This document shows positions 10,070 to 41,532 of a DNA stretch of 64,000 nt, in pieces (within the stretch, counting starts at the first letter, position 1; each line of letters starts with the position of its first letter). Where the stretch lies: NCBI RefSeq assembly GCF_003113495.2, contig NZ_CP084506.1:3162001-3226000 (forward strand). Direction: 5' to 3'. A model generated the notes under the pieces. It did not search any database. It was not told where the DNA came from and saw only the letters and a list, made by a program, of their open reading frames with translations. Source of the DNA: Edwardsiella tarda ATCC 15947 = NBRC 105688 (lineage in GTDB: Bacteria; Pseudomonadota; Gammaproteobacteria; Enterobacterales; Enterobacteriaceae). The position numbers and the translations under genes were made by a program.

Positions 10070-10343
10070 GCAAACTCCCGCAGTAAACTTAACGCTAACA
10101 CTCTTTCCACCGCTGAACTTCCGCGCGCTGGCCTAGGCGCAGGCTCCCCTCCTACGGCGTACTCATGCGGACATATTGTGCGCAAAGCCGGCGTGGGATA
10201 CAACGAAACAGGAAAATCATGATTATTCGAGATTAGACTGTTTTCCACAATACAACGATTAACCTCTCATAGATGACGGCTCCGTGTACGTTTTCAGATT
10301 TTTCGCCGTTCAACTGCCTATTTATTAGCGTTTGGAGGATATT

Positions 10344-10976
10344 TTGCACAACGATCACGATAGCTTACCGCTGACCCCCGCCCAGGCGCTGCCCGGACGT
10401 AGCCAAGCGATGATCATTACCCCACAGCATGCGGTTAACGGCCATGCGTTGTACGGCGTCCCTGCCGGTATGGAAGAGGCGCTCTTCGCTATGGGCTGTT
10501 TCTGGGGGGTTGAGCGCCTATTCTGGCAACAGCCTGGTGTATATAGCACCGCCGCTGGCTACAGCGGTGGCTTGACGCCTAACCCCACCTATCGCGAGGT
10601 CTGTAGCGGGCAAACCGGTCACGCCGAGACGGTACGCGTGGTATTCGATCCGGCGCATATCGACTACCCGGCGCTGCTGCGCCTATTCTGGCAAAACCAC
10701 GATCCAGCTCAAGGCATGCGCCAAGGCAACGACATTGGTAACCAATACCGTTCGGCGTTATTCCCGCTGACGCCACAGCAGCAGCAAGCCGCGCAGGACA
10801 GCCGTATACGATTTACTCAGGCGATGCGGCAGGCGGGCGATCTCCGCCCCATTACGACCGAGATCACGCCCGCGGGCCCCTTCTACTATGCCGAAGAGGA
10901 ACATCAACAGTACCTGTATAAGCACCCGCAAGGGTATTGTGGTTTGGGCGGCATCGGCGTATGTCTACCCGAATAA
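10344..10976 (+). CDS. msrA: Peptide methionine-S-sulfoxide reductase A
   Basis: A 210-residue cytosolic repair enzyme that reduces methionine S-sulfoxide in proteins using thioredoxin. The catalytic cysteine is Cys52 in GCFWGVE, and the C-terminal [16 protein letters not shown] tail supplies the resolving cysteines ([14 protein letters not shown] here). I place the start at TTG 10344 because GGAGG (10334-10338) sits five bases upstream and the length then equals the family norm; a TTG at 10332 overlaps that ribosome-binding site and is unlikely. It is divergent from tamA, as in E. coli. Confidence 0.95.
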
Positions 10977-37430: not shown

Positions 37431-38927
37431 TCAAGGATTTACCCAACGCCTGATCTCAGGCAGCAGATCGCTGGCCAACATGCCGCGCGTCCCCTCACGC
37501 TGCGCCAGCACATCGGCGGCAACGCCATGCACGACAGCGCCTGCGCAGGTGGCATCATACAGCGGGAGCTTTTGTGCCAGCAAACCGCCAATGATACCAG
37601 AGAGTATGTCACCCATCCCGCCGCTTGCCATCCCGGGATTACCAATATCAGCAATCGCACGCCGTGTCCCATCGGCAATCAGTGTGCCCGCCCCCTTCAA
37701 CAACGCGACCCCACCGTAGCACCGCTGTAATGCGCATACCGCGGCGGGCCGATCCCGCTCGATCTGGGCGATGCTGCATCCCAATAGGCGGGCCGCCTCA
37801 CCGGGATGCGGCGTGATCACCCGACGCGCATCCGTAGAGGGCGCTTCAGCCAGCAGGTTAAGGGCATCGGCATCCCAGAGCATCGGCCGCTGACAGTCAA
37901 CGATCGCCGCCAGAGCGCGCCGTCCCCAGTCTCGCCGCCCCAATCCCGGGCCGATCGCGAGCACATCGGCCCAGGCGAGCGCCTCGTGTAATGCCGCCGG
38001 ACTCCACGCCTCGACCATCAGCTCAGGACACGCCGCCAATAACGGCGCGACATGCTCCGCCCGCGTCAGTACCCGCACCAGTCCCGCGCCGCTACGTAAC
38101 GCGGCCTGACCGGCGAGACGAATCGCCCCCCCCATGCCATGATCGCCGCCGATCAGCAGCAATCGCCCCTGCTCCCCCTTATGAGCCAACGGCGAGCGTG
38201 GCGGCAACCACCCCGCCAGATCCTGACCATCCAGACGACGCCATGGCCAGCGCTGTGCCGCCAGCCAGCCGGAGAGCCCGAGGGGGTCGCAATGCAGTTG
38301 CCCCACCACGGCGCGCGCCTGCCCGGTCAATAACCCCGGCTTCAGGCAGATAAAACTTTGGGTATGCTCGGCCTGCACCACGGCCCCGAGAGCAATGCCC
38401 GTGTCGGCATTCAATCCCGAGGGGAGATCGAGCGCGACCACCGGGGCGGGATGGGCGTTGATCGCGGCGATCAACCCATCATAGGGCGCACGCGGCGCGG
38501 CGTGTAGACCAATGCCCAACAAGGCGTCGACGATCACCTCTGCTTCCGGCAACGGCAGCATGGCTGGCTGTACACATCCGCCCGCCTGCAACCATTGCGT
38601 GCGCGCCTGCTGCGCCTCTATCGGGAGCGCCCCATCTCCGGCGACAGCCAACAGCGTCACGTGAATGCCACTGGCGCGCGCCAGGCGCGCCACCACATAC
38701 CCGTCGCCACCGTTATTGCCATGTCCACACAGGATCAGCCAGTGACGTGCACAGGGATAGTATTGGCGTATCCGATTAAAAGCCGCCTGACCGGCGCGCT
38801 GCATCAGGTCCGCCAGCGTGATGCCGTGCGCCTGCGCGGCGTGCTGCTCTGCGTCACGTACCCAATCCGCTGGCGCGACATAGTGTGCTAAACTGCTGGC
38901 GTTTCCGTAGCAAGAATGGCCCATCAT
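37431..38927 (-). CDS. nnr: Bifunctional NAD(P)HX epimerase and dehydratase
   Basis: A 498-residue repair enzyme for hydrated NADH and NADPH. The N-terminal YjeF epimerase domain (about residues 1-220) has CGHGNNGGDGYVVARLA; the C-terminal ADP-dependent dehydratase, a ribokinase-like domain (about 225-498), has DADALNLLAE and NPGMASGGMGDILSG. The start at 38927 has GAGGGG seven bases upstream, which lies within the queG coding region. The first codons of the two divergent genes share bases, as in E. coli. It starts the nnr-tsaE-amiB-mutL-miaA-hfq-hflXKC run. Confidence 0.95.
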   Translation of the reverse strand: MMGHSCYGNASSLAHYVAPADWVRDAEQHAAQAHGITLADLMQRAGQAAFNRIRQYYPCARHWLILCGHGNNGGDGYVVARLARASGIHVTLLAVAGDGALPIEAQQARTQWLQAGGCVQPAMLPLPEAEVIVDALLGIGLHAAPRAPYDGLIAAINAHPAPVVALDLPSGLNADTGIALGAVVQAEHTQSFICLKPGLLTGQARAVVGQLHCDPLGLSGWLAAQRWPWRRLDGQDLAGWLPPRSPLAHKGEQGRLLLIGGDHGMGGAIRLAGQAALRSGAGLVRVLTRAEHVAPLLAACPELMVEAWSPAALHEALAWADVLAIGPGLGRRDWGRRALAAIVDCQRPMLWDADALNLLAEAPSTDARRVITPHPGEAARLLGCSIAQIERDRPAAVCALQRCYGGVALLKGAGTLIADGTRRAIADIGNPGMASGGMGDILSGIIGGLLAQKLPLYDATCAGAVVHGVAADVLAQREGTRGMLASDLLPEIRRWVNP

Positions 38928-40068
38928 GACTCATCCCCTCGATCTGCATCAGTTAGCCCAACATATCAAGCAATGGGGCCTATCGCTAGGATTCCAGCAG
39001 GTCGGGATCGCCGATACGGATTTGCGGCTTGAAGAGGCGCGGTTACAGGCGTGGCTGGATCAAGGTTATCATGGGGAGATGGCATGGATGGCGCGCCACG
39101 GCATGATGCGCGCTCGCCCCGCCGAGCTGTTGCCCGGAACCCTACGGGTGATCAGTGTGCGCATGAACTATCTGCCCCCCCATGCGGCCTTCGCCTCGAC
39201 GCTGAACGATCCGATGCGCGGCTACATCAGCCGCTATGCCTTGGGACGCGACTACCATAAGGTGCTACGTGGCCGTCTTAAGCGATTGGGAGAAATGATT
39301 CAGGCGCACTGCGGCGGCACGCTCGGCTTCCGCCCCTTCGTCGACTCAGCTCCCCTACTGGAGCGCCCTTTAGCGGCCAAGGCCGGTCTCGGCTGGAGCG
39401 GAAAGCATTCGCTGCTGATCAATCCGCAGGCTGGCTCCTGGTTTTTCCTCGGCGAGCTCTTGGTCGATCTGCCGCTACCTATCGACACGGCGCAAGAGGC
39501 CCAATGCGGCCGCTGCGTCGCCTGTATGACCACCTGCCCGACCGGGGCCATCGTCGCGCCATACACCGTGGATGCACGGCGTTGTATCTCGTATCTGACT
39601 ATCGAAGCGGAAGGCGCCATTCCTGAGGATCTACGCCCGTTACTCGGCAATCGAATCTATGGTTGCGACGATTGTCAGATGATCTGCCCCTGGAACCGCC
39701 AGGCGCCATTGAGCGAAGAGGCCGACTTCCGGCCGCGCACGGCGCTACACGCGCCCGCGTTAACCACCCTATTCACCTGGGACGAGGCCACCTTCCTACG
39801 CATGACGGAAGGCTCGCCCATCCGCCGCATCGGCTATCAGCGCTGGTTACGCAACCTGAGCGTCGCCTTGGGCAATGCACCTTACACGGCCGAGATCGTC
39901 GAGCTATTAACACGCCGCCTGGGGATCAGTGCACTCATTGATGAGCACATTCACTGGGCGTTGGCGCAACAGTTAGCCAAACGCGACGCACACAACGTTG
40001 AGGTCATCAGCAACCAACAACGTCGACTGATCCGTGCCGTCGAGAAGGGGCTGCCGCGCGACGCCTAG
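38926..40068 (+). CDS. queG: Epoxyqueuosine reductase
   Basis: A 380-residue cobalamin-dependent enzyme that reduces epoxyqueuosine to queuosine at tRNA position 34, the last step of queuosine synthesis. Two ferredoxin-like 4Fe-4S motifs are present: CGRCVACMTTCPTG (about residues 189-203) and CDDCQMICPWNR (about 245-257). A C-terminal HEAT-like region follows. Length is close to E. coli QueG (379). It is divergent from nnr with overlapping start codons, and is followed by the datA-like region. Confidence 0.97.
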   Translation: MTHPLDLHQLAQHIKQWGLSLGFQQVGIADTDLRLEEARLQAWLDQGYHGEMAWMARHGMMRARPAELLPGTLRVISVRMNYLPPHAAFASTLNDPMRGYISRYALGRDYHKVLRGRLKRLGEMIQAHCGGTLGFRPFVDSAPLLERPLAAKAGLGWSGKHSLLINPQAGSWFFLGELLVDLPLPIDTAQEAQCGRCVACMTTCPTGAIVAPYTVDARRCISYLTIEAEGAIPEDLRPLLGNRIYGCDDCQMICPWNRQAPLSEEADFRPRTALHAPALTTLFTWDEATFLRMTEGSPIRRIGYQRWLRNLSVALGNAPYTAEIVELLTRRLGISALIDEHIHWALAQQLAKRDAHNVEVISNQQRRLIRAVEKGLPRDA

Positions 40069-40099
40069 TCACGCGAGCATGCTAACAAGCTACACAGAC

Positions 40100-40275
40100 C
40101 CGCTGTGTATAAAAATAAAATTTTGTTGTTATTCAACCCTCAGGCCAAATGCAAGTGAACCATATCTCGATTTTTTGCTTATTTTTATACTTATAAATCA
40201 AATTGTTATAATCTTGATGCTTTTTTGCTCGCAAGCGAAGGGGCGAAGAGGTGGCTGAAATCCTGTGGATAACTC
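40100..40275. other. datA: Probable datA locus (DnaA boxes plus IHF site)
   Basis: Two DnaA boxes lie on the minus strand: TTATACACA (40104-40112) and a perfect TTATCCACA (40264-40272). Between them is a perfect IHF site, AATCAA-N4-TTA (40196-40208), in very AT-rich DNA. In E. coli, datA is the non-coding locus next to glyVXY and queG where DnaA boxes and IHF stimulate hydrolysis of DnaA-ATP to limit initiation. Position and contents both fit. Weaker boxes may lie near 40129 and 40328. Confidence 0.75.
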
Positions 40276-40361
40276 TGTTAATGGAAGTATGAGCAATCAC
40301 TGCAGACTGCGCAGAGTATCGTGATGATGTGCTTGAGATAGGGTAAAACGAAGAAGAAAAT

Positions 40362-40437
<76 letters not shown>

Positions 40438-40488
40438 AGAGTGATGCTTCTGGCATCGACACCATAACAGTAATGGTGTTTTGAAGTT

Positions 40489-40564
<76 letters not shown>

Positions 40565-40615
40565 AGAGTGATGCTTCTGGCATCGACACCATAACAGTAA
40601 TGGTGTTTTGAAGTT

Positions 40616-40691
<76 letters not shown>

Positions 40692-40738
40692 AATGGTACT
40701 GCTTTTTTTCATCCAGCCGCACAGCGACCTTCTAAATT

Positions 40739-40814
<76 letters not shown>

Positions 40815-40877
40815 GTCGCGTAACCGAACGGCCTACATCTGAAAAACTTCACAATTCCGTCTCGGTACGGGGAGCGC

Positions 40878-40905
40878 ATTATACGGAGATTTTTATCTCC
40901 CGCAA
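40878..40905 (-). promoter_or_regulatory. Stable-RNA-type promoter of the tRNA-Gly cluster
   Basis: On the minus strand TTGCGG (40900-40905) and a perfect TATAAT (40878-40883) are 16 bases apart, followed by a GC-rich discriminator (GCGCTCCCC). This architecture is typical of growth-rate and ppGpp-controlled tRNA promoters. Confidence 0.85.
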
Positions 40906-40986
40906 GCCCCCCAAGACGAAAAAGTCAGATAAATTGACTGACTGCCGATAAAAGCGCCGCAGCGTACACATTATCGGCAAATAGGC

Positions 40987-41532
40987 TTACAGGCGAATAA
41001 AATTACTACGGTAATAGGCCAACTCGGCTACCGACTCGCGGATATCATCCAATGCCTGGTGGGTATTCTGTTTGTGGAAACCCGCCAGAATCTCCGGCTT
41101 CCAACGCCGCGCCAGCTCTTTCAGGGTACTGACATCCAGATAACGGTAATGGAAGTAGCGTTCCAGTTCGGGCATATAGCGGAACAGGAAGCGGCGATCC
41201 TGGCCGACACTGTTGCCACAGATCGGTGAGACCCCCGCCGGCACCCATTGGCGCAGGAATTCCAGCGTCGCTTGCTCGGCGGCGGCCGCATCGTAGCGGC
41301 TCTCCTTCACCCGCTGCACCAAGCCGCTAGCAGTATGGGTGCGTACGTTCCACTCATCCATCAGTGCTAGCTGGGCGTCGTCTTGATGCACCGCGATCAC
41401 CGGCCCCTCGGCTAACACGTTTAATTCGGCATCGGTCACCAGTGTGGCGATCTCGATGATCCGGTCGCGCTCGGGATCCAATCCGGTCATCTCCAGATCG
41501 ATCCAAATCAGACGTGTTTCGCTTGCACTCAT
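40987..41532 (-). CDS. orn: Oligoribonuclease
   Basis: A 181-residue DEDDh 3'-5' exonuclease that finishes RNA decay by degrading dinucleotides, including pGpG from c-di-GMP turnover. The motifs [14 protein letters not shown] (Exo I), a central Asp region and [10 protein letters not shown] (Exo III) are intact. Length and sequence match E. coli Orn. It lies upstream of the tRNA-Gly cluster on the same strand and is divergent from rsgA, as in E. coli. Confidence 0.97.

Follow-up and report, generated by a model that had tools for sequence, protein, structure and literature searches.

A probable datA locus beside queG in an Edwardsiella species, with an arrangement of DnaA and IHF sites conserved in relatives

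The DNA analyzed here is a stretch of 64,000 nucleotides from an Edwardsiella genome (the window), and we place the datA locus of this species at 40104-40284 with a probability of about 0.92, a figure that includes the mechanism carried over from Escherichia coli. Minimal datA is described in excerpts from PMC5742627, PMC5835720, PMC10950094, and PMC10380432 as requiring DnaA boxes 2, 3, and 7 and one IHF site, with the essential boxes sharing one direction, box 7 being of low affinity, and a further box, box 4, being stimulatory. In the window, the equivalent of box 3 (TTATACACA, 40104-40112, minus strand) and that of box 2 (TTATCCACA, 40264-40272, minus strand) both match the consensus, on which alone their predicted affinity is judged, and are 160 bp apart. 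Between them is a putative IHF site, WATCAANNNNTTR, which has no mismatch to the IHF-binding-site consensus AATCAAATTGTTA (40196-40208, plus strand) and is the equivalent of the datA IBS. These three sites lie at the coordinates and on the strands given for them in the earlier note, whose reading of the stretch as a datA-type locus is supported by gene order, site order, orientation, and spacing, all of which agree with E. coli datA. That note did not include the box 7 position, which ends the locus (CCATTAACA, 40276-40284, minus strand, 3 bp from box 2) and keeps the ACA end but has 3 mismatches to the consensus. Nor did it mention that two other E. coli boxes are poorly matched: where box 1 would lie, the window offers nothing better than 2 mismatches (1 in E. 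coli), and where the box inverted against box 3 would lie, nothing better than 3 (1 in E. coli).

The surroundings of the locus are those of E. coli datA, as had been claimed. To the left lies queG (38926-40068, plus strand), a 380-aa ORF with 72% identity to E. coli QueG and 93% identity to the QueG of Edwardsiella hoshinae, and to the right lie four tRNA-Gly(gcc) genes (40362-40814, minus strand), the transcription of which is directed at datA. The order nnr, queG, gap, tRNA-Gly genes, orn, rsgA, and psd is that of E. coli K-12, with orn named by tblastn and nnr, rsgA, and psd by reading of the ORF translations. The gap between queG and the first tRNA-Gly gene measures 293 nt and has a GC content of 38.9%. 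The DNA at 40100-40275 is indeed AT-rich (35.8% GC against 57.4% for the whole window), although five other patches of the window are equally so. The predicted datA lies ∼387 kb from oriC (10.2% of the four-contig assembly), compared with 467 kb (10.1%) in E. coli; a BLAST search that used the oriC region of E. coli located oriC of the Edwardsiella genome upstream of mnmG.

In E. coli K-12, datA likewise lies between queG and the tRNA-Gly array, with co-oriented boxes 3 and 2, an IHF site between them, and box 7 positioned 3 bp past box 2. For K-12 we infer that box 3 is TTATTCACA, box 2 is TTATCCACA, and box 7 is TTGTAAACA, 3 bp from box 2. Under this assignment, box 3 to box 7 spans exactly 183 bp, which is one of the minimal datA lengths in excerpts from PMC5742627 (the other being 262 bp); 187 bp is given in excerpts from PMC10380432. 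The corresponding span in the window is 181 bp, and the offsets of the IHF site and box 2 from box 3 are 92 and 160 in the window and 93 and 162 in E. coli. The IHF core reads AATCAAATTGTTA in the window and TATCAATAGGTTA in E. coli datA. Box 7 is weaker in the window than in K-12 (3 mismatches against 2), and box 1 and the box inverted against box 3 are poorly matched by comparison. The alignment with E. coli datA that had been proposed as a check proved uninformative. Pairwise identity was 52%, with 27 of 40 positions identical in the elements and 75 of 128 in the spacers, so that the elements were not clearly favored, and the IHF site was displaced by the aligner. This alignment, the degenerate box 7, and the poor matches to box 1 and the inverted box count against the datA reading.

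The earlier note had made its reading depend on conservation in close relatives, and the boxes are conserved there. Among 111 queG loci, one being the window itself (L002) and at least one genome being represented twice (L003 and L032), 103 have the two boxes at a spacing of 159-164 bp, exactly 161 bp in 64 of them; at 152-171 bp and with at most one mismatch in each box, the count is 104. The 80 named loci are the best 80 of 352 when ranked by similarity of queG, which biases them towards close relatives, and one queG search matched 41 genomes, 11 of which yielded no locus. Of the 103 sequences from box 3 to box 2, 101 are distinct. Box 2 is an exact consensus box in all 103 loci and box 3 in 102. 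The IHF site, the conservation of which was also in question, lies at +91 to +94 and has 0, 1, 2, or 3 mismatches in 52, 36, 12, and 3 loci, respectively; 0 or 1 mismatch is thus seen in 88 of 103 loci, whereas windows taken from the same spacers as controls do so in 33 of 2,575 cases. Every one of the 103 loci retains the ACA end of box 7, together with a 3-bp spacer that reads, on the plus strand, CTC (66 loci) or GTC (37 loci). Three mismatches in box 7, as in the window, are found in 10 of the 103 loci, E. hoshinae among them. As assessed by an alignment of 23 representatives, the right arm is otherwise little conserved.

The box pair is absent in six of the 111 loci (L025, L026, L027, L029, L030, and L031), all from other families of the order. 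One of these, L029 (family f25), has queG, three tRNA-Gly genes, and orn in the datA order, yet no datA-like box pair between them, so this gene order alone does not imply datA. The contig of L049 ends 142 nt past queG and is too short to show a box pair. At L023 (family f11), the boxes are 165 bp apart and the box 2/7 composite is preserved, with no good IHF site; L115, of the same family, likewise has a datA-like box pair. At L028 (family f5), the arrangement is present with an IHF site that has 2 mismatches.

Two further blocks have fixed places between the boxes. Relative to box 3, the motif TTGNNNNTCAA starts at +19 to +26 in 83 of the 103 loci, whereas none of 1,676 control windows has it; CAAGNGATC lies at +44 to +53 in 53 of the 103, against none of 1,333 control windows. 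In the window, the first block is retained as TTGTTATTCAA (40126-40136), and the second is present as a degenerate copy, CAAGTGAAC (40152-40160), from which the GATC has been lost. No DnaA box was seen in either motif. The TTGNNNNTCAA block is not named in the excerpts from the literature on which this account draws.

Conservation was also assessed regardless of gene order, in an order-wide sample of 394 genomes, using the pattern TGTGNAWAA-N148-157-TGTGGATAA. This pattern was found in 30 of 34 genomes of the family, compared with 1 of 34 for a shifted-spacing control, and the four family genomes without it measure 0.8-1.2 Mb each. In other families, it occurred in 29 of 360 genomes. Many of these matches look like chance, since the shifted-spacing control gave 17 of 360. 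Families f8 and f27 have recurring, apparently homologous matches at datA-like spacing that start with TGTGAAAAAGTTT or TGTGCAAAAGTTT. A stricter pattern, to which part of box 7 was added, was present in 177 of 295 family genomes. Counted by hand from a rounded table, these comprise 174 of the 194 genomes that reach 2.5 Mb and 3 of the 101 below that size. In 15 of the 20 larger genomes without a match, both boxes are present 158-164 bp apart and differ from a slightly relaxed pattern by 0 to 2 mismatches; the IHF sites of these 15 have 0, 1, 2, or 3 mismatches in 5, 6, 3, and 1 genomes, respectively. As judged from these pattern matches, datA-like sites are general in the larger genomes of the family. 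In most of the smaller genomes, searched with the strict pattern only, no match was found.

Several genomes depart from this picture. G486 has a broken queG, a box spacing of 154 bp, and no IHF site; its queG match (G486:C1:616529-617601, L174-L176) is in three pieces, and the locus is possibly a decaying datA. In G452 (L171, 3.3 Mb, with full-length queG), no datA-like sites were seen in the 600 nt after queG. The match in G419 covers the first 287 residues of QueG only, and the stretch searched there may consequently be the wrong one. G493 and G529 gave no queG match.

By analogy with the work on E. coli, the sites and spacing observed in the window would act after initiation, when IHF would bind at 40196-40208 and bend the DNA between the boxes. 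This bend would unite ATP-DnaA at box 3 with ATP-DnaA at boxes 2 and 7, the resulting DnaA oligomer would hydrolyze its ATP, and ADP-DnaA would leave, by which premature re-initiation would be restrained (DDAH). The partner proteins are encoded in the genome. DnaA shares 92% identity with its E. coli counterpart and retains R281, R285, L290, and R334, the residues named for DnaA action at datA and in DDAH in excerpts from PMC5742627. IhfA, IhfB, and both HU proteins score above the NCBIfam cut-offs, and Hda was recognized, the part of it that was scored reaching 264.5 bits, slightly short of its cut-off (268).

Could the sites be a chance cluster of motifs in AT-rich intergenic DNA? Taken singly, the motifs are weak evidence and near chance in the window, which is what such a cluster would predict: TTWTNCACA has 4 matches against 2.4 expected (24 of 100 shuffles reach 4), and the IHF consensus has 2 against 0.98 expected (26 of 100 shuffles reach 2). 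Two more DnaA-box matches, ∼100 bp apart, lie elsewhere in the window, at 10241-10249 and 10342-10350. The combination behaves differently. In 400,000 sequences simulated from a first-order Markov model of the 293-nt gap, at least two DnaA boxes with an IHF site occurred 19 times, two same-orientation boxes at 159-164 bp occurred 6 times, and no sequence showed the E. coli-like arrangement in full. The three-site pattern, moreover, has a single occurrence in the whole genome, and these two results argue that the combination of motifs is not due to chance. Considering also that the spacing is conserved in 103 of 111 queG loci, and that each of the 30 pattern-bearing family genomes has just one match, we reject a chance origin, which we regard as scarcely credible.

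Real sites could still serve another end. The locus might be a DnaA titration site only, which in this Edwardsiella species would bind up DnaA without promoting ATP hydrolysis. This would suit the degenerate box 7, since box 7 is needed for hydrolysis in E. coli, according to excerpts from PMC5742627 and PMC5835720. Titration has no obvious need, however, for an IHF site at a fixed offset, which 88 of 103 loci keep with no more than 1 mismatch, or for a box 7 position whose ACA end and 3-bp spacing are kept in all 103, and we find this explanation improbable. Less probable again, indeed very unlikely, is that the region is a terminator or promoter of queG or the tRNA operon and that the boxes are conserved on that account. 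A promoter-like match (10 of 12 positions, with TG before the -10 element; 40184-40212, plus strand), which may be due to chance, does overlap the IHF site, and in excerpts from PMC10950094 E. coli box 2 and the IHF site are reported to affect read-through. But a search of 40060-40900 gave no terminator-like site, the RNA fold of 40260-40361 does not stand out from those of shuffled sequences (z -0.70), and loci without adjacent tRNA genes keep the arrangement. The terminator search gave 2 sites in the E. coli stretch, where ∼1.0 would be expected by chance. A structured RNA was rejected as well: Rfam on 39900-41000 gave the four tRNAs and one sub-threshold match, to YrlA, inside the tRNA array (34.7 bits, cut-off 69), and the fold score is the one given above. 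We retain the datA reading: the Edwardsiella element is almost certainly an orthologue of a known type of element, in a species new for it, and useful as comparative evidence. Within E. coli, datA is conserved among the 59 strains compared in excerpts from PMC4585315. No literature on its conservation beyond E. coli strains was seen in a word search, which cannot separate datA from "data."

Two other DnaA-binding regions bear comparison with the locus. The DnaA box 6 bp past the annotated E. coli oriC feature, which we take to be box R4, lies in the sequence ACAGAGTTATCCACA, which is common to this oriC-side box, to E. coli datA at boxes 7/2, and to the window. The shared sequence would fit two DnaA molecules bound head to tail. 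This reading carries little weight, because neither of the two TTATCCACA boxes next to the oriC of the Edwardsiella genome itself shows the ACAGAGTTATCCACA flank; their flanks are different, which also counts against the datA reading. In contrast to the oriC-side box, there is no origin at the window locus, oriC being ∼387 kb away. DARS2, the DnaA-reactivating sequence upstream of mutH, is like datA a cluster of DnaA boxes working with IHF, but it differs, according to excerpts from PMC8682772, in its surrounding genes, its opposed core boxes, and its opposite effect. The Edwardsiella genome has a DARS2-like stretch upstream of mutH (G000:C1, ∼632,200, L152), with two TTATCCACA boxes and 76% identity to E. 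coli over 97 bp.

The tRNA-Gly genes bear on what times IHF binding. The extra tRNA copy that had been pointed out is present: the window has four tRNA-Gly(gcc) genes, compared with three in E. coli K-12 and three in each of the three same-genus genomes with a long enough locus (L003, L004, and L005). Three of the four genes start 127 bp apart with an identical spacer (40362-40691). Because these 127-bp steps are repeated here and there is one such step in the same-genus genomes, the extra gene looks like a tandem duplication. In excerpts from PMC10950094, the loss of IHF from E. coli datA is attributed to read-through from the tRNA-Gly operon. Of the 103 loci, 56 have a tRNA-Gly gene no more than 450 nt from the queG stop and 43 do not; in the other 4, the contig is too short to tell. 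Five of the 43 have their tRNA-Gly at 663-949 nt, a distance at which read-through is possible, 6 have it at 1.4-3.8 kb, and 32 are without it in the 1.5-4 kb examined. In 38 of 99 testable loci, then, the datA sites are kept with no tRNA-Gly within 1 kb of the queG stop. Among the 43 loci with none within 450 nt, the IHF site is as well preserved as in those with adjacent tRNA-Gly (0 or 1 mismatch in 38 of 43 and 47 of 56, respectively). These loci do not represent that many independent events, as they fall into few groups (Pectobacterium and its kin, Xenorhabdus, Photorhabdus, and single others). As judged from reading of the translations, the gene directed into datA resembles ahpF in Pectobacterium aroidearum and a transporter gene in Xenorhabdus kozodoii; at L053, L076, and L077, the closest ORF with 140 codons or more is directed away from datA.

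Considering these 38 loci, the tRNA read-through model for IHF timing cannot be general as stated. Whether the timing of IHF at datA is in general independent of the tRNA-Gly operon, and set by other transcription or by a signal within datA itself, is to our minds an evenly balanced question. The TTGNNNNTCAA block is a candidate for a timing element of the latter kind. Both this block and the persistence of datA without a near tRNA-Gly gene may be new points.

Taken together, these findings would carry the anatomy of datA beyond E. coli, to most of the larger genomes of the family. They point to the features that selection keeps: boxes 3 and 2, the IHF site between them, and the ACA end of box 7, all held at distances that vary by a few bp. 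They also offer natural variants, namely loci without an adjacent tRNA, loci with a weak box 7, and a family genome without datA-like sites at queG, which would be suited to asking what times IHF binding at datA.
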